From Galbibacter marinus (GTDB lineage Bacteria > Bacteroidota > Bacteroidia > Flavobacteriales > Flavobacteriaceae), in assembly GCF_000300875.1 (NCBI RefSeq), contig NZ_AMSG01000013.1, positions 1 through 64,000 on the forward strand: a stretch of DNA of 64,000 bases, in the 5' to 3' direction. Below, one piece after another: positions 15,738 to 23,414 of this stretch (the stretch's first letter is position 1; every line of letters starts with the position of its first letter). The notes beneath the pieces were generated by a model, which was not told the origin of the DNA, ran no database searches, and saw nothing but the letters and a program-made list of their open reading frames with translations. The translations under genes and the position numbers were made by a program.

Positions 15738-16319
15738 ATGAATCCGAAAGTCGACTTTTTCTTCGAAAAACAAAGCAATTGGCAAGAGTGTTACAATCAA
15801 CTTCGCCGTATAATTCTGGATTGCGGATTACAAGAAGAATTAAAATGGGGCGTACCATGTTATACTTATCAAAAAACCAACATAATTCTAGTCCATGGCT
15901 TCAAACATTACTGTGCGATCTTATTCCACAAGGGTGTTTTATTAAAAGACCCATACAATATTCTGATTCAACAAACAGAAAATACCCAATCAGCAAGGCA
16001 TTTAAGGTTTACAACTGTTGAGCAAATAAGGCAATTGGAACCCAAAATCAGAGAGTATATCTTTGAAGCCATTGAAGTGGAAAAAGCTGGAATAAAAGTG
16101 AGCTTCAAGAAAACGAAGGATTTTGAGATGGTGGACGAATTTAAAGAAGCTTTGGATAATGATTCTGAGCTAAAAACTGCTTTTAATAATTTAACCCCAG
16201 GACGGCAACGCGCATACTTACTTCACTTCTCTTCTGCAAAACAAGCCAAGACCAAACGTTCACGCATCGAGAAATGTAGCCCTAAAATCCTAGAAGGAAA
16301 AGGATTAAATGACTTTTAA
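15738..16319 (+). CDS. YdeI/OmdA-type DUF1801 protein
   Basis: Cytoplasmic protein of 193 residues. The N-terminal DUF1801 domain (about 10-110) shows EELKWGVPCYTYQKTNI and VHGFKHYCAILFHKG, the usual sequence of this iron-chaperone-like fold. The C-terminal part (about 135-193) has the OmdA-like helical motif AFNNLTPGRQRAYLLHFSSAKQAKTKRSRIEK. B. subtilis YdeI and OmdA-like proteins are linked to stress and peptide resistance, but the biochemical role is not established. Single gene after a strong terminator. Confidence 0.85.
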   Translation: MNPKVDFFFEKQSNWQECYNQLRRIILDCGLQEELKWGVPCYTYQKTNIILVHGFKHYCAILFHKGVLLKDPYNILIQQTENTQSARHLRFTTVEQIRQLEPKIREYIFEAIEVEKAGIKVSFKKTKDFEMVDEFKEALDNDSELKTAFNNLTPGRQRAYLLHFSSAKQAKTKRSRIEKCSPKILEGKGLNDF

Positions 16320-16376: not shown

Positions 16377-16706
16377 TTACTGTGAGATAATTACTGCACG
16401 GGTGCGACTATTAATACTATCTATTTGAATTCTGAATTGTTGATCATCTTTGGGATGGTTAATATAAACTCCAAAATTCAAACTATCAGCATAAAACATC
16501 AACACCGAACCTTGTTCATTTTCAAAATCCGCGTATCCATTAATATAACTATATGGCGGAATTTCACCGTCTAATTTATGATCAAAAAGCTGAATATTCG
16601 AAATTGTATAAGGTGTATTGTTTTCAATGCGATAACTATTTTGACAGTTTTTAGAATAAACAAAAGTGATCACACCAAGGACAATGAAATAAAAAACTCG
16701 AAACAT
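16377..16706 (-). CDS. Small secreted protein of unknown function, last gene of the tyrosinase operon
   Basis: A 109-residue protein with an N-terminal hydrophobic segment (about 2-17, FRVFYFIVLGVITFVYS) that can be a signal peptide. The mature part looks like an all-beta domain: alternating strands, many Asn/Tyr/Phe, one Cys, no sorting domain. I recognise no family. It starts 2 bases after the tyrosinase stop, so it is almost certainly co-translated. Streptomyces tyrosinases need a small secreted partner for copper loading; this gene has the right position and size, but no His-rich copper site is visible, so that role is only a hypothesis. Confidence 0.7.
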   Translation of the reverse strand: MFRVFYFIVLGVITFVYSKNCQNSYRIENNTPYTISNIQLFDHKLDGEIPPYSYINGYADFENEQGSVLMFYADSLNFGVYINHPKDDQQFRIQIDSINSRTRAVIISQ

Positions 16707-16708
16707 GA

Positions 16709-18094
16709 TTACATTTTAATTACTTTTTTCACCACCAAGGTTTTCCCTTGTGAATCAACGACTTTTACAACATAAGTTCCAGGTGCCAATCCATAAAGGT
16801 TTTTCACCTCTAAGGTATCGGTAAATTCAAAAACTTCTTGTTTAATCAGTGCTCCTACCATATTGTATATCTCAATTACACAATCACGTTTCTTATCTAG
16901 CTTAATAGTAATATGATTATCAAATGGATTAGGGAAAGTTTTAATAACCACCACCGCGTCGTCTGGATCAACATCTCCCTCACTCCATAGCCATACTTGC
17001 TCCAAATCCACTTGATCAAAATGGTTTACTTCTCGTTTAGTGCTAGTTTTTGAAGATCTAGCTAGTAATTCAGAACTTGATTGCTCATCTATTGTAATTA
17101 ATACATCTGCTCCACTTTGTGCTAGAAACCCAGGCTGCAATACCACCTGGTTTACGGACTCTAAAACCGCATTACTTCCAGTAGCAGCAATAAAGTTAGA
17201 ACCTGCTTGAATCGTATATTGATAGTAAAAATATTCTTGGTCATTATAGGTATTACTGACAATGTAATTGTTCAATTCAGCCAATTGATTCTCGGCGTAG
17301 AATACACCTAATGCACGTGTGTCTAAAATATCATTTGGATCTACCACAGGAAGAGTTTCTCCTGCAAAAACATAGGTTCCATCGTAACGAATCATATCAT
17401 TTCTCAAATAAAATGAAGTATGATGAAGCTCTTCCCAATCGTGCCATATTTTATCGATAAAGGCGTGGTGGAGGTAAAAAACAGGGTCTCTTGGAGAAGC
17501 AGAGGTAATCATAGCACCAGAAACCCATCGATGCGCCCCTGAGTGTGGTGGTTGTCGTTCAAATAAATCTGAAAATTCAAAAAAATCAGTCTCTAGCATT
17601 AAGTTAGATACACTACTAGGCGAAGGTAAATCATTATAGAGTCCTAAACGCCGTCCAAGCCCCCAATTCGAATTAAAGCTCCCCATAAAATCTACATCCC
17701 ATAGCTGAGAATTTGGAGATTGATCCTGGGAAGAATCCCAATAAGGTATACTAATTCTTGGATTCAACTCTTGCATTACCTGTTCCATTTCAAAAACAAA
17801 CTGACGGTGCCATGCGAGAAATATTTCTTTTTCAGGTTCATCCGGCAGGTTAAAATGGATATCCAATACATTGGGATTAATATTGTCATAGTTGAAAAAA
17901 TCCATATGGAAATTAGCCATATCCGTGATCCTATCAGGTGTAGTTGAACGAACCGTGTAGAAGGCATTTACCAATTCTGTTTTCTCATAATCGGTCATCT
18001 CACGGTAATCCTTACGGATACTTTGAGCATCGACCTGAGAATAAGCCAGCATTAATAAACACAAAACCTGAGTCTTAAATGCTCTAAAATTCAT
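16709..18094 (-). CDS. Secreted tyrosinase-family copper oxidase with type IX sorting domain
   Basis: Type 3 copper enzyme of the tyrosinase family (phenol/catechol oxidation by O2), exported and probably cell-surface attached. Signal peptide about 1-23. The CuA ligands are likely His63, His80 and His96 (in FLAWHRQF). CuB ligands are His184 and His188 (PPHSGAHRW) and one of the His209/210 pair in DPVFYLHHAFIDKIW. Residues 300-337 form a beta segment (VVLQPGFLAQSGADVLITI) common before sorting domains. Residues 385-461 are a type A type IX sorting domain (TFPNPFDNHITI to VVKKVIKM). It overlaps the FN3 gene upstream by 4 bp and leads the small unknown gene by 2 bp. The substrate is unknown. Confidence 0.9.
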   Translation of the reverse strand: MNFRAFKTQVLCLLMLAYSQVDAQSIRKDYREMTDYEKTELVNAFYTVRSTTPDRITDMANFHMDFFNYDNINPNVLDIHFNLPDEPEKEIFLAWHRQFVFEMEQVMQELNPRISIPYWDSSQDQSPNSQLWDVDFMGSFNSNWGLGRRLGLYNDLPSPSSVSNLMLETDFFEFSDLFERQPPHSGAHRWVSGAMITSASPRDPVFYLHHAFIDKIWHDWEELHHTSFYLRNDMIRYDGTYVFAGETLPVVDPNDILDTRALGVFYAENQLAELNNYIVSNTYNDQEYFYYQYTIQAGSNFIAATGSNAVLESVNQVVLQPGFLAQSGADVLITIDEQSSSELLARSSKTSTKREVNHFDQVDLEQVWLWSEGDVDPDDAVVVIKTFPNPFDNHITIKLDKKRDCVIEIYNMVGALIKQEVFEFTDTLEVKNLYGLAPGTYVVKVVDSQGKTLVVKKVIKM

Positions 18095-20202
18095 CGCTCT
18101 ACGGGGTAAGTGTTTAATTTGAGCTCTAAGGCTTCAATCTTATTTGCTAATTCTTTTAATTGCTCGTTCTGACTTTTTAACTGTTGTATTTGTTTTTCTT
18201 GAGCAATGGCATACAAGGTGAGTTCTTCAATTTTACGGAGCAGTTTGGCATCCATATCCCCAAGTGCAATACCTTGCTGTTGTACTTGATGAGCACTTGG
18301 AATATTCATAAGATGTTTATTGGTTTTGATGTGCTGCTCAACCGCTGCTAAGCTTGGTAATTCATAGGAGGTTTCGAAAACGAAATCTGGCCAATTTCCT
18401 TGTAAAGCAACCCTTACTTCTTCTGCTACTATATTTCCAGCAACCGCTAATCTATAGGCAGGATTAACTTGGGTCCCAATTCCTACATTACCACTAGCTA
18501 TAAAGTTATTGGACTGCCAATCAACAGTGGGTAGATTTGCATTTTCGGTTGTATAAGCAGTAGCTCCACCAGTTGGCGCTTCTAAGGTGGTTATGTTTAC
18601 CGAATTACTAATGGTAGAGATATTTCCTGAACCATCCATGGCAACAGCTGTAAAGGAATAACTTGTTTCCGGTGTTAGATTTGTCACATTAAAACTTGTT
18701 GCCCCTCCACTAAGACCAATACTAATACCGTCTTGAAAGATTTCATAATCAACCACTCCAACGTCATCCATAGAAGCACTCCAGGAAAGCGATGTACTAC
18801 TAGATGTTGTGGATCCTGCTACAAGATCTGTAATAGCAGTTGGCGCTTGGCTATCGGTTTCTCCTGTAGTTGTTAAATTGGCGGTATTACTAATCAAAGA
18901 CGTGTTCTCAGCTGCATCTAGGGCAATAGCAGTAAAAGCATAACTAGTTGCTGGGGTTAGATTCGTTACATTAAAGCTGGTTGCTCCTCCACTTAGGCCA
19001 ATACTAGTTCCATCTTGGAAAACTTCATAATCAACCACCCCTACATTATCCGTTGAAGCGCTCCATGAAAGGATTGCACTATTGGAAGTTATTGCACTAG
19101 CGATTAAATCCGTAATTGCTGATGGTGCCTGGGTATCAGCGGCAGCTGTTGTAGTTACATTAGCTGTATTACTTACTAAAGACGAATTTCCAGCGGCATC
19201 CATTGCAATGGCGGTAAAACCATAACTAGTAGCTGGAGATAGATTGGTCACATTAAAACTGGTTACTCCTCCACTTAGGCCAATACTAGTTCCATCTTGA
19301 AAAACTTCATAATCTACTACCCCAACATTATCCGTTGAAGCACTCCATGAAAGGGTAGTACTACTAGAGGTGGTAGCACTGGCGGTTAAATCAGTAATTG
19401 CTGATGGTCCCTGGGTATCAGCTGCAGTTGTAGTAGTAACATTGGCTGTATTACTTACTAAAGATGAATTTCCAGCGGCATCCAAGGCAATAGCAGTAAA
19501 AGCATAGTTAGTTGCTGGGCTTAGATTCATCACATTAAAATTGGTAGCTCCTCCACTTAGACCGATACTACTTCCATTTTGAAAAACCTCATAATCCACT
19601 ACCCCTATATTATCTGTGGAGGCACTCCAAGAAAGTGCTGTACTACTAGAAGTGGTAGAACTGGCCGTTAAATCAGTAATAGCTGATGGTGCCTCGCTAT
19701 CATCAACTAATGGGGTAATAGTGACTGCATCAAGCAAAATACCATCTCCAGAGACAGCTCCTCTATTAATTGGAGCTGTGTACGCCCGAATAACCGCAAC
19801 ATTCGAGTTTGCTGTTAACTCAAAGCTATACTCAGTCCATTGTGTTGTTAAAATAGATCGTTCGGAAAAGTTTGAAAACCCAGACCAATTGGCAAAGGCA
19901 GGTAAATAACTCTGCGGTGCCCTTTTAGCCCAAATTTTAATGGAATAAACTTGCCCGCTAGTGACATTAAATGTATAAGAGGCATCTCTTCCATTAGTCT
20001 GTCCAGTGGATGAGACTAACATGGAAAAGCTTCCATGCTCCACATCTGTAGATTCAGAAGAGATCACCGCCCCACCAGTCCATCCGGTTGTAGCATCTGA
20101 CTCATTGTCAATTGAAACAGCGTTTGACTGTGTATGAATTTCTTGAGACCACAGAGTACTAGAGAGTAAAAGAGTCAATAATAATGTAAAGGTTGTTCTC
20201 AT
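18091..20202 (-). CDS. Secreted four-FN3 surface protein with Bacteroidota tail module
   Basis: 703 residues. Signal peptide about 1-19 (LLLSSTLWSQ). Residues 25-166 look like a jelly-roll carbohydrate-binding module (CBM4/9-like: GWTGGAVISSES to GDGILLDAVTITP). Four fibronectin type III domains follow at about 170-258, 264-352, 358-446 and 452-540, near-identical and rich in Ser/Thr. Residues 560-703 are the common Bacteroidota module seen at the end of large surface proteins: NVGIGTQVNPAYRLAVAGNI, WPDFVFETSYELPSLAAVE, HLMNIPSAHQV, then a coiled coil with KIEELTLYAIAQEKQI. No type IX sorting domain is present. First gene of the tyrosinase operon (ATGA overlap). Adhesin or matrix scaffold is the likely role. 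Confidence 0.82.
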   Translation of the reverse strand: MRTTFTLLLTLLLSSTLWSQEIHTQSNAVSIDNESDATTGWTGGAVISSESTDVEHGSFSMLVSSTGQTNGRDASYTFNVTSGQVYSIKIWAKRAPQSYLPAFANWSGFSNFSERSILTTQWTEYSFELTANSNVAVIRAYTAPINRGAVSGDGILLDAVTITPLVDDSEAPSAITDLTASSTTSSSTALSWSASTDNIGVVDYEVFQNGSSIGLSGGATNFNVMNLSPATNYAFTAIALDAAGNSSLVSNTANVTTTTAADTQGPSAITDLTASATTSSSTTLSWSASTDNVGVVDYEVFQDGTSIGLSGGVTSFNVTNLSPATSYGFTAIAMDAAGNSSLVSNTANVTTTAAADTQAPSAITDLIASAITSNSAILSWSASTDNVGVVDYEVFQDGTSIGLSGGATSFNVTNLTPATSYAFTAIALDAAENTSLISNTANLTTTGETDSQAPTAITDLVAGSTTSSSTSLSWSASMDDVGVVDYEIFQDGISIGLSGGATSFNVTNLTPETSYSFTAVAMDGSGNISTISNSVNITTLEAPTGGATAYTTENANLPTVDWQSNNFIASGNVGIGTQVNPAYRLAVAGNIVAEEVRVALQGNWPDFVFETSYELPSLAAVEQHIKTNKHLMNIPSAHQVQQQGIALGDMDAKLLRKIEELTLYAIAQEKQIQQLKSQNEQLKELANKIEALELKLNTYPVER
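18583..19695 (-). repeat. Four tandem FN3-coding repeats of about 282-285 bp
   Basis: Each unit starts near (A/G)P(S/T)AITDL and contains SWSAS, GVVDYE(V/I)FQ and SIGLSGG at fixed spacing of 94-95 codons. The middle units are also highly alike at DNA level. This invites recombination and copy-number change, and may also cause assembly collapse. Confidence 0.9.
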
Positions 20203-20570: not shown

Positions 20571-21179
20571 ATGTATAGAAAATTCATCAAACGCTTTATG
20601 GATATTCTTTTATCCTTGCTAGCCTTGATTTTCCTTTCTCCAATTATAGTTCTTTTGTGGATCTGCTTATTTGTTGTCAATTCTGGGCAACCGTTCTTTT
20701 ATCAATTAAGACCTGGCAAAGATGCACGTGTATTTAAACTTATAAAATTTAAATCCATGACTGATAAAAGGGACGAAAACGGAGAGTTATTGTCTTACGA
20801 AAAACGAGTCACTAAAATTGGTAGTTTTATACGCAAATACTCTTTGGATGAAATTCCACAACTTATCAATGTACTTTTAGGAGACATGAGTCTAATTGGT
20901 CCAAGACCACTTCTGGTTAAATATCTACCACTTTATAATGACTTTCAAAAGAAACGGCACCTTGTAAAGCCAGGAATCACTGGTTGGGCACAAGTTCATG
21001 GAAGAAATGCTATTTCATGGGATGAAAAATTTAACTATGATATTTGGTATATAGAGCATCTGAGTTTTACAACAGACCTTCAAATTATTTTGAAAACAAT
21101 TAAAAAAGTAATCATAAAAGACGGTATTAATTCAGGACCGAACCTAAACATGGTTGCATTTAAAGGAAACAAAACATGA
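20571..21179 (+). CDS. Phosphoglycosyl transferase, PglC/WcaJ-type monotopic
   Basis: Transfers a sugar-1-phosphate from a UDP-sugar to undecaprenyl phosphate, the first membrane step of a surface glycan or glycoprotein. The 202-residue length is that of the minimal PglC-type catalytic unit without the N-terminal helices of WbaP. Features: re-entrant membrane helix (about 10-36), KFKSM (58-62), the catalytic Asp-Glu pair in SLDEIPQLINVL, GDMSLIGPRPLL, and HLVKPGITGWAQVHGRNA. It heads three overlapping genes. No glycosyltransferase, flippase or polymerase is nearby, which is unusual for this enzyme. Confidence 0.92.
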   Translation: MYRKFIKRFMDILLSLLALIFLSPIIVLLWICLFVVNSGQPFFYQLRPGKDARVFKLIKFKSMTDKRDENGELLSYEKRVTKIGSFIRKYSLDEIPQLINVLLGDMSLIGPRPLLVKYLPLYNDFQKKRHLVKPGITGWAQVHGRNAISWDEKFNYDIWYIEHLSFTTDLQIILKTIKKVIIKDGINSGPNLNMVAFKGNKT

Positions 21180-21847
21180 GAGATAGATCAGTTATTATAG
21201 GAGCCGGAACCCAAGGGCAGATTTATGCATCCTATTTACTTGAAGCAGGTATTGATATTGTTGGTTTTATTGACGACAATCCATCACTATTTGGAAAAAA
21301 AGTTGTTGGTGTACCTGTAATCGGATGTTATAGTGATTTATTCACTTCCCGATTTAAAGAAAATATTCAAGCTGTCTATTGTCCTATAGGGGACAACCAT
21401 ATTCGGGTTGAATATCTTACAGAGCTACACAAAGAAGGTTATAAGATCCCAAGTTTTATTCATCCTTCGGTTTCTATAGGTCCTGATGTAACTTTGGGTA
21501 AAGCGATATACATGTTAGTAGGTAATATTGTAATGCCGCACACCACTTTAGGAAACTATATAATGATCAATCAAGCAAGCACCATTGCACACCATGTAAT
21601 AGTTGAAGATGGAACCTTTATGTCTTCCGGGGTTAATGTTGGCGCAGGTATTCGTGTTTGTGAAAAGACATACATTGGGATGGGTGTCACCGTTATGACC
21701 GGAGTTAAAAGTCTAGGCAAAAATTGCCTTCTTGGAGCTGGTAGTGTTATTATAAAGGATGTTCCAGAAAATGCTGTCATGGTAGGAAACCCAGGAAGAG
21801 TTTTAAAATATCAAAAAAACGATTATAATGTACAATGCAAACCTTAG
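21176..21847 (+). CDS. PglD/NeuD-like sugar O- or N-acetyltransferase
   Basis: Left-handed beta-helix (hexapeptide) acyltransferase. The N-terminal Rossmann-like part (about 1-85: SVIIGAGTQGQIYASYLLEAG, DDNPSLFGKKVVGVPVIG) binds the UDP-amino sugar in PglD. The helix part (about 90-215) has repeats such as SIGPDVTLG and the terminal GAGSVIIKDVPENAVMVGNPG. In PglD the catalytic His is followed by helix turns; here HH in IAHHVIVEDG (about 138-139) fits. The start overlaps the PglC-like gene by 4 bp (ATGA). Together they suggest synthesis of an acetylated (di)amino sugar on a lipid carrier. Confidence 0.9.
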   Translation: MRDRSVIIGAGTQGQIYASYLLEAGIDIVGFIDDNPSLFGKKVVGVPVIGCYSDLFTSRFKENIQAVYCPIGDNHIRVEYLTELHKEGYKIPSFIHPSVSIGPDVTLGKAIYMLVGNIVMPHTTLGNYIMINQASTIAHHVIVEDGTFMSSGVNVGAGIRVCEKTYIGMGVTVMTGVKSLGKNCLLGAGSVIIKDVPENAVMVGNPGRVLKYQKNDYNVQCKP

Positions 21848-23414
21848 TCACCCTATGGATTTATGTTTTATTGGGTCTGGTATATCATCCACATTTACTC
21901 TTATCCACCTTTTGGAAAACCGTATAGAGAATCAAACAAAAACTTTCCTAGAAATAGCTATTATAGAGAAGTACGAGGAATTCCATACAGGTATACCGTA
22001 TGGGAAGAGATCTGGTGATTCCGTGCTTCTTATTACTTCTCTTAAAAATTTTCTCCCTAATCCAGAATACACAAAATTCATACATTGGCTCCATGAAAAT
22101 TACCCCACCCTTATTAACAGGATGGAGTCCTCAGGTGGTGATTTAACTAAACAATGGCTCAAAAAATATAAAGAAAGTATAGATAAAGGTCAATGGGGTG
22201 ATCTATTTATTCCTCGACATTTTTTTGGGATTTACCTAAAGGATAAATTAAACCAATTAATTAATCAACAGAGCTCTAAAGGTGTTTTAAAGGTTCATTA
22301 CATTAATACCCAAGTAACTGATGTTACAAAAAATGATCCATACTTTACCATTATTGGAGGAGGACTACAACTTCAAAGTAAAAAAGTAATTCTTGGGATT
22401 GGTTCACTACCCAACCATAAAATTTATACTGACAAGAACATACTGACAAAAGATAAGCTCTTGTTAATCAATCAAATATACAACCCAAACTTGGATGAAA
22501 ATTTAGAACGAATTTCAAATTTCACTTCATCTTTACACCAATCTGGGAGTTTGTGTAACATACTTATAATTGGTGCAAATGCTAGCGCTTTAGAACTGCT
22601 ATATAAACTAAATGACAGACCACATAAAGGTGATTATACCACCAATTACTTCTTTTTATCAACCCATGGGGTACTCCCCGATTGTGAAGTGGACAGCAAA
22701 AAACAAGCAGATTATAATGCTATCCATCTAAATAATCTACAATCAGAAAGTGATTTAACGGCAGCTCAAATTGCAGAAGCAGCGGAACTAGATCTAGACG
22801 CTGCTGAAAAAATTCATTTGGGGGCTGCCTCCACTGTTGGAATAATATCCAATGCTTTTGGTAACCTTCTATCTAAATTAAATTCTGAAGAGCTGAAAAA
22901 TTTTGCCTGCCTATACGGTAATGAAATCGGTAGACGTCAACGCTGTGCAGGCCAACATTATCTGGATGTTATTGATGATTTAAATTCAAAAGGTCAATTT
23001 AGGCATCTGAAAGGGCGGTTCAGGGATTTAATAAAACAAAACAACGGGGACTACCATCTACTCTACCAGTGCCCCGAAGCAGATACACCAAACACTTCGT
23101 CAATGCCATTTCATGTGGTGATTAATTGTATTGGAAGCGCGAAATTTGGCGCAAATAATAACCAAGTGCCCACCTTACTAAAAAACCTAATAAATAAAGG
23201 TTTAGCACGCCCAAATGCTTCTCAAATAGGATTACAAGTGAATTCTAAATTAGAATGCTCTGAAAATATACATGTAGTAGGACCATTACTTGCCGGAAAT
23301 ATTATAGAATCTAAAGCCGTTTGGCATGTTGAGCACTGTGGAAGAATCATTTGGTTATCGGGAGTTTTAGCTAAAACTATTGTGCAACCTCAACAGGCGA
23401 CAATTACTAGTTAA
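21828..23414 (+). CDS. FAD/NAD(P)-binding oxidoreductase (COG4529-like)
   Basis: 528-residue flavoprotein-like enzyme with the NAD_binding_9-type Rossmann start DLCFIGSGISSTFTLIHLL (about 11-29), IIEKYEEFHTGIPYGK (about 45-60), a second dinucleotide motif CNILIIGANASALELLYKL (about 241-259), and the typical HVVINCIGSA towards the end. The C-terminus GPLLAGNIIESKAVWHVEHC may close the FAD site. Substrate unknown. The first ATG overlaps the acetyltransferase gene by 20 bp; a second ATG at 21855 just after its stop is an equally good start. Tight coupling to PglC/PglD-like genes suggests it oxidises or reduces a sugar or lipid intermediate of that pathway. Confidence 0.82.
   Translation: MYNANLSHPMDLCFIGSGISSTFTLIHLLENRIENQTKTFLEIAIIEKYEEFHTGIPYGKRSGDSVLLITSLKNFLPNPEYTKFIHWLHENYPTLINRMESSGGDLTKQWLKKYKESIDKGQWGDLFIPRHFFGIYLKDKLNQLINQQSSKGVLKVHYINTQVTDVTKNDPYFTIIGGGLQLQSKKVILGIGSLPNHKIYTDKNILTKDKLLLINQIYNPNLDENLERISNFTSSLHQSGSLCNILIIGANASALELLYKLNDRPHKGDYTTNYFFLSTHGVLPDCEVDSKKQADYNAIHLNNLQSESDLTAAQIAEAAELDLDAAEKIHLGAASTVGIISNAFGNLLSKLNSEELKNFACLYGNEIGRRQRCAGQHYLDVIDDLNSKGQFRHLKGRFRDLIKQNNGDYHLLYQCPEADTPNTSSMPFHVVINCIGSAKFGANNNQVPTLLKNLINKGLARPNASQIGLQVNSKLECSENIHVVGPLLAGNIIESKAVWHVEHCGRIIWLSGVLAKTIVQPQQATITS

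Follow-up and report, generated by a model that had tools for sequence, protein, structure and literature searches.

A phenol oxidase with predicted export and a carbohydrate-binding-type scaffold form a conserved gene unit associated with a PaaK-like ligase in Flavobacteriaceae

The bagremycin/ferroverdin enzymes BagE (a ligase) and BagH (an o-aminophenol oxidase) belong to a small-molecule pathway and pair, within one system, a ligase of the PaaK type with an oxidase of the tyrosinase type. In Streptomyces, the tyrosinase MelC2 is exported by the Tat route. The caddie protein and the tyrosinase of melC1-melC2 are carried on one mRNA, as stated in an excerpt of PMC11608171, and the products of phenol oxidases glue or harden material outside the cell by quinone chemistry in mussel glue and insect cuticle, as described in an excerpt of PMC7504153. 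Among the literature matches listed, none described a bacterial gene set dedicated to quinone curing or gluing. Here, we analyzed 64,000 nucleotides of Galbibacter marinus DNA (contig NZ_AMSG01000013.1, hereafter the window), in which the open reading frames (ORFs) for a scaffold protein, a tyrosinase and a protein of 109 residues form a single minus-strand operon. A phenol oxidase with predicted export and a scaffold bearing a carbohydrate-binding module (CBM) were found to form a conserved unit associated with a ligase, and an association of this unit with polysaccharide synthesis was found at about half of the loci.

Like melC1-melC2, the Galbibacter operon joins a small partner to a tyrosinase of the same catalytic fold; unlike it, the operon has a type IX secretion system (T9SS) sorting domain, a CBM-FN3 scaffold and no MelC1 match, and loci of this type are linked to ligase and polysaccharide genes. 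The ORF coordinates bear out the tight coupling given in the preliminary description of this DNA, the scaffold and tyrosinase ORFs overlapping by 4 bp (18091-18094) and the tyrosinase and 109-residue ORFs being separated by 2 bp (16707-16708).

The tyrosinase matched PF00264 with 94.3 bits (curated cut-off 22.6), which places it in the type 3 copper family, and all six copper ligands are present; H63, H96, H184, H188 and H210 are kept in 32 of 32 aligned sequences and H80 in 31. Glu179 is invariant in the same 32 sequences, and it may, as a guess, be the "water keeper". The AlphaFold2 model (mean pLDDT 85) was compared using Foldseek, and its catalytic domain matched Priestia/Bacillus and Streptomyces (MelC2) tyrosinases (best E 7e-14), with the Bacillus (Priestia) megaterium enzyme as the best match (E 7.1e-14, TM 0.68 by target length). 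When ranked by sequence, multi-domain hemocyanins came first and Bacillus/Streptomyces tyrosinases after them, and the score against the MelC2 equivalog NF047834 (114.2 bits) was below the cut-off of 450. Unlike the P. megaterium enzyme, that of Galbibacter adds a weak GCX_COOH-type match after the catalytic domain (22.8 bits, cut-off 26) and a T9SS sorting domain, and the residue following its first CuB histidine (HisB1+1), Ser in the window, is variable in the family (Arg, Ala, Asn, Thr, Val and others). The sorting domain scored 39.6 bits against Por_Secre_tail PF18962 (cut-off 27) and was also above the TIGR04183 cut-off, and the C-terminus of the model matched PorZ and the RemA and NucA sorting domains in the T9SS translocon. 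SprA, the sole T9SS part searched, is encoded in the genome (2843 bits, cut-off 200). Given the sorting domain and SprA, the tyrosinase is a predicted T9SS type A cargo. The NCBIfam matches to the bagremycin/ferroverdin enzymes were far below cut-off (tyrosinase to BagH, 92.4 against 630; ligase to BagE, 28.3 against 800), and unlike that system, the Galbibacter oxidase is predicted to be exported and is accompanied by a scaffold. Viral contigs searched with tyrosinase patterns gave no match.

To survey related loci, genome contigs were scanned with the catalytic domain, because most initial matches were T9SS tails only, and 79 loci (L numbers) were obtained. The close group comprised 37 rows (L044-L076, the window, L037, L041 and L042), from which L066 (a second copy, located on the same contig as L065) and L076 (from the same metagenome-assembled genome, MAG, as L075) were dropped, leaving 35 loci. 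Less than 5 kb was available downstream at L056, L063, L072, L074 and L075, and the other 30 loci were used for absence counts. L044, L045 and L057 are Galbibacter records, and the scaffold-type gene was recognized by its tail. This gene lies immediately upstream of the tyrosinase gene, on the same strand and with gaps of -20 to +95, at 31 of the 35 loci, the exceptions being L052, L073, L074 and L075. The CBM part was matched in 22 of these 31 scaffolds; 7 are truncated at the end of a contig, and no match was obtained for L067 and L072. A PaaK-like ligase is encoded at 20/35 loci (missing at 10/30), a pair of an HMA protein and a TonB receptor at 14/35, and a polysaccharide-initiating sugar transferase within the fetched DNA at 18/35. 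Among 46 more distant tyrosinase loci (L077-L122), which served as a control, a scaffold-type tail protein was upstream in 2, both from Bacteroidota, a weak ligase match occurred in 1, and neither the small protein nor the HMA/TonB pair was seen in any.

A frequent gene order is scaffold, tyrosinase, small protein and ligase; an HMA-TonB pair in inverted orientation precedes the small gene in Arenibacter and Cellulophaga and follows it in Galbibacter. Sugar transferases, NeuD-type acetyltransferases and glycosyltransferases surround many of the loci, but not those of the Mangrovimonas type (L042, L054 and L065). In Galbibacter L040/L044, the scaffold, tyrosinase, ligase and glycosyltransferase genes are contiguous, with neither the HMA/TonB pair nor the small gene, and in MAG G297 a scaffold-type protein is encoded directly upstream of the ligase, with the tyrosinase on another contig. 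The preliminary description, which had proposed a set of three genes, was supported as to the coupling of oxidase and scaffold, but it contained neither the PaaK-like ligase nor the polysaccharide genes or the HMA-TonB pair.

The scaffold matched fn3 of Pfam in four stretches (E 1.7e-36), and its N-terminal domain scored 26.4 bits against PF02018 (CBM_4_9), a marginal match given the cut-off of 25.9. A CBM_4_9 match at E<=0.01 was obtained in 6/13 aligned scaffold members, and the PDB sequence matches of this N-terminus are xylanase modules (1k42, E 1.9e-4; 3jxs, E 5e-4). On these matches we assign the domain as a CBM_4_9 module with predicted carbohydrate binding. Together with the upstream pairing at 31 of 35 loci and the sorting domain, this supports the initial proposal of a T9SS-exported phenol oxidase coupled to a carbohydrate-binding-type scaffold. 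In relatives, the scaffold proteins reach 1430 and 3241 residues. The coiled-coil tail is tail-fibre-like and presumably of a type common in Bacteroidota; a phage origin was considered and rejected, as PHROGs gave only a single family, weakly matched and of unknown function. G129 encodes a second CBM_4_9-FN3 protein, with its own T9SS sorting domain, next to its tyrosinase locus (L217 11664-12830). Distant Bacteroidota tyrosinases with an upstream tail-type protein were seen at L080 (5476-6228, E 3e-19) and L085 (2599-3486, E 1e-4), and from these matches the pairing of tyrosinase and tail protein may be older than the Flavobacteriaceae.

The gene contents of 397 Flavobacteriaceae genomes (G numbers) were then profiled. 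The tyrosinase was found at E<=1e-100 in 17 genomes, with weak matches in six more, and the scaffold CBM domain at E<=1e-40 was present in 16 of these 17 as compared with 1 of the 380 others (G032); G339, also one of the others, gave weaker CBM-domain matches (best E 1e-20). Since many seeds of the CBM profile came from tyrosinase genomes, its absence elsewhere is the informative part. The PaaK-like ligase at E<=1e-50 was detected in 54 genomes (15/17 with tyrosinase, 39/380 others), and the small protein in 12 (E<=1e-20), all among the 17 with tyrosinase. The Fisher p values, which ignore relatedness, were 2e-26 for the CBM domain, 1.7e-12 for the ligase and 2e-19 for the small protein. At E<=1e-100 the ligase was found in 17 of 19 tyrosinase genomes, and in 15 of those it lies within 10 kb of the tyrosinase. 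Within Galbibacter, the ligase is present in 5/5 genomes with tyrosinase and the small and HMA proteins in 4/5 each, as compared with 0/2 genomes without tyrosinase for all three. Genus g15 agrees: the tyrosinase, the CBM domain, the small protein and the ligase are all present in G297 and all missing from G020; genus g18 shows the opposite direction, G023 having a diverged tyrosinase without partners and G298 a ligase without tyrosinase.

In the genome of the window, the HMA, TonB and ligase genes are unlinked from the trio and lie on another contig (C2), followed by genes for a beta-helix protein, EpsG, a pyruvyl transferase and glycosyltransferases; this ligase is 68% identical to that of L037. 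The ligase copy of L055 stayed below the named NCBIfam cut-offs (80.8 vs 300 bits for the DVU1553 family, 54.2 vs 646.3 for PaaK), so we name the protein PaaK-like only. We do not use the name "CapK", which denotes another protein in S. aureus. The 24 tyrosinase-linked ligases share two invariant motifs, TSGSTG and RYDTGD, that we take to be nucleotide-binding. In a tree of 54 ligases, the 23 copies nearest to a tyrosinase fell on one side of a branch together with 6 more (the unlinked copy of the window's genome, the G297 copy, three second copies and that of G446, which has no close-group tyrosinase); a separate group of tyrosinase-type ligases is suggested, but only suggested, by this sequence tree. 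Where a locus has two ligases of different groups (L041, L047, L064 and L220), the tyrosinase-nearest copy grouped with the other tyrosinase-nearest ones in 4/4 cases and the second with generic ligases, that of L041 being a long branch. At 20 ligase loci from genomes without a close-group tyrosinase, no scaffold tail was found and a sugar transferase was present at 11, so polysaccharide loci are indicated by the ligase alone. A CxxC motif is present in the HMA protein, which passed the Pfam HMA cut-off, with CopZ-type NCBIfam models matching only below cut-off; the TonB receptor had no PDB sequence match at E<=0.001, so that the link to copper comes solely from the motif and profiles of the HMA protein. 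A beta-helix protein adjoins the ligase at L183 (11058-12962, PF13229 above cut-off) and L067 (12026-13855, below cut-off), possibly a polysaccharide-modifying enzyme judging from these matches.

The coordinates of the operon and of its neighbours are presented in Table 1. The divergent sugar transferase adjoins the scaffold gene in 5/5 Galbibacter tyrosinase loci, and a homologue of the FAD/NAD(P)-binding protein is also linked in L037 and L040/L044. On the other side, adjoining the small gene on the opposite strand, DUF1801 and OmdA are combined in one protein (15738-16319), a homologue of which was flagged in none of the fetched neighbour loci. Elsewhere, a second tyrosinase lies between the first one and the ligase in G132 (L221 10260-13313), where it bears a von Willebrand A domain, and in Pricia antarctica (L059 11853-14651). 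At L043/L074 (uncultured Algibacter, contig end), a diverged tyrosinase with no scaffold upstream has a collagen-like protein (22.3 bits for PF01391, cut-off 27) directly downstream.

Table 1 Features of the operon and of the adjoining divergent genes in the window
Feature	Position	Strand	Evidence
Scaffold protein, 703 aa: signal peptide (by eye), CBM_4_9, four FN3, coiled-coil tail	18091..20202	(-)	
CBM_4_9-type N-terminal domain of scaffold, residues about 20-166	19705..20145	(-)	PF02018, PDB matches
Four FN3 repeats of scaffold, residues about 167-551	18550..19704	(-)	PF00041
Scaffold C-terminal NVGIGT / NWPDFVF / coiled-coil tail	18091..18549	(-)	sequence
T9SS-exported tyrosinase, 461 aa (export predicted)	16709..18094	(-)	profiles, structure model
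Tyrosinase catalytic domain, six copper histidines	17300..18025	(-)	alignment, Foldseek
T9SS type A sorting domain of tyrosinase, residues 387-460	16715..16936	(-)	PF18962, TIGR04183
Small exported protein (predicted), 109 aa, predicted 7-strand beta-sandwich	16377..16706	(-)	
Bacterial (initiating) sugar transferase, divergent neighbour of scaffold gene	20571..21179	(+)	PF02397 E 1.3e-62
NeuD/PglD-type sugar acetyltransferase	21176..21847	(+)	TIGR03570 164.3 bits, cut-off 160.8
FAD/NAD(P)-binding protein	21828..23414	(+)	PF13454

The small protein had been suggested to be a metallochaperone-like partner of the tyrosinase, and in its strongest form, as a MelC1-like chaperone loading copper into the enzyme, this idea appears very improbable. 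In its favour, the small-protein family is present at 18/35 loci and follows the tyrosinase directly in 8 of those 18, and the expected co-occurrence of the two holds in 12/12 genomes with a strong match. Against it, no His, Cys or Met column is conserved in 17 aligned members, the start Met excepted, no Pfam or NCBIfam family was matched at E<=0.1, MelC1 (PF06236) included, and the protein is absent at 12 of the 30 loci where 5 kb or more could be read downstream. Remote relatives, likewise small proteins and several with a lipoprotein-like start, are encoded at unrelated loci and occur in genomes without a close-group tyrosinase; weak matches (E 1e-10 to 1e-3) were found at 15 places, and in the 11 of these regions examined there was neither a tyrosinase nor a scaffold tail, one region belonging to the tyrosinase genome G297. 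By a crude pattern, a lipobox-like cysteine is present in 9/17 relatives and not in the window's own protein. The AlphaFold2 model (mean pLDDT 89) is a 7-strand beta-sandwich without a PDB match at E<=0.001 in Foldseek (best 2mca, E 1.6e-3). After VIA rescoring, the best match was the PepT2 extracellular domain (Z 9.5), followed by many ordinary beta-sandwiches, the AlgF N-terminal domain among the matches (Z 7.8), and we regard the modelled fold as a widespread arrangement that says nothing about function; the structural matches listed did not include MelC1, from which a different fold should not be concluded. Some close relatives (Galbibacter sp. L044, Mangrovimonas L054 and L065) have the tyrosinase but lack the small protein, so the trio is not obligatory; of the two partners expected in close relatives, the scaffold is near-constant and the small protein is not. 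We read the latter as a surface accessory and not as a chaperone.

The simplest explanation of these data, and the most likely one, is that the surface oxidase acts on the cell's own matrix. It is quite possible, though we would not call it probable, that the operon represents the extracellular half of a polysaccharide-matrix module. In such a module, the PaaK-like ligase would activate an aromatic (phenolic) acid and help to place the phenol on the polysaccharide or its precursor, the CBM-FN3-coiled-coil protein would bind the polymer as a multimeric scaffold, and the T9SS-anchored tyrosinase would oxidise the phenols to o-quinones, which could couple to each other or to amines, leaving the matrix cured or glued. 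The TonB receptor and HMA protein may supply copper where present, and the small beta-sandwich protein would act as the surface accessory. A bolder version, which we judge unlikely, is a Flavobacteriaceae counterpart of mussel glue, in which, through a dedicated gene set, the cell's own exopolysaccharide would be decorated with phenols by the ligase, bound by the multimeric scaffold and cured by a copper-supplied tyrosinase exported through the T9SS. The likeness to mussel glue and insect cuticle is an analogy of mechanism only, with no homology claimed and a putative phenolic matrix on the Galbibacter side.

Several observations weigh against the polysaccharide-matrix module. The sugar transferase was seen at only 18/35 loci in the fetched DNA, and the Mangrovimonas and Pricia loci (L042, L054, L065, L059 and L069) have the ligase without it. 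L053, L058, L071 and L073 have no ligase, small protein or HMA/TonB pair at the locus, the rest of their genomes not having been searched. Close ligases occur in 39 genomes without a close-group tyrosinase, G129 lacks the ligase despite having the small protein, the ligase of G023 is only a distant one, and the branch of tyrosinase-type ligases has a support of only 71/56. HMA relatives are not enriched, being present in 14/19 tyrosinase genomes and also in 8/12 hand-picked others, so they are not specific and copper supply is at most an add-on. True tyrosinases are named with Ser or Ala at HisB1+1 in an excerpt of PMC11608171; given the variability of this position here, monophenolase activity cannot be assumed. 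The limited occurrence of the sugar transferase and the lack of HMA enrichment weaken the matrix module and strengthen another view, still rather unlikely to us, that the scaffold-tyrosinase pair is real and its closeness to ligase and polysaccharide genes reflects shared traffic of surface genes without common function. Polysaccharide loci are variable, and the four loci without partners, the unlinked ligase in the window's genome and the contrary genus g18 (G023 tyrosinase without a close ligase, G298 ligase without tyrosinase) fit such traffic; yet the presence and absence of ligase and tyrosinase agree within Galbibacter even where the two are unlinked, and the consistent grouping of the tyrosinase-nearest copy at the 4/4 two-group ligase loci also argues against it.

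Two further explanations place the substrate outside the cell's own matrix. In the first, which is unlikely in our view, the enzyme would detoxify or degrade phenols of the environment (algal polyphenols, for instance) outside the cell, and the scaffold would keep it attached to algal polysaccharide: the carriers do include Cellulophaga, Arenibacter and Pricia, which are marine or alga-associated, and the scaffold CBM resembles xylanase modules, but the neighbours identified, at about half of the loci, are polysaccharide synthesis genes (no search for aromatic catabolism was made), and the association with the ligase would be left unexplained. The same link is left unexplained if the enzyme makes a protective surface melanin or pigment from free tyrosine or other small phenols, which we consider improbable; the best structural matches are indeed Bacillus and Streptomyces (MelC2) tyrosinases, which by sequence come next after multi-domain hemocyanins, but a diffusible pigment needs neither T9SS anchoring nor a near-constant CBM scaffold.

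If the substrate of the oxidase is the matrix of the cell itself, some flavobacteria may chemically harden or glue their polysaccharide coat, as mussels do with their glue. If this is true, the genera named here would become tractable models of wet adhesives and of biofilm matrices that are cured chemically, and a concrete, testable context would be available both for the family of the small protein and for the ligases found in polysaccharide loci.

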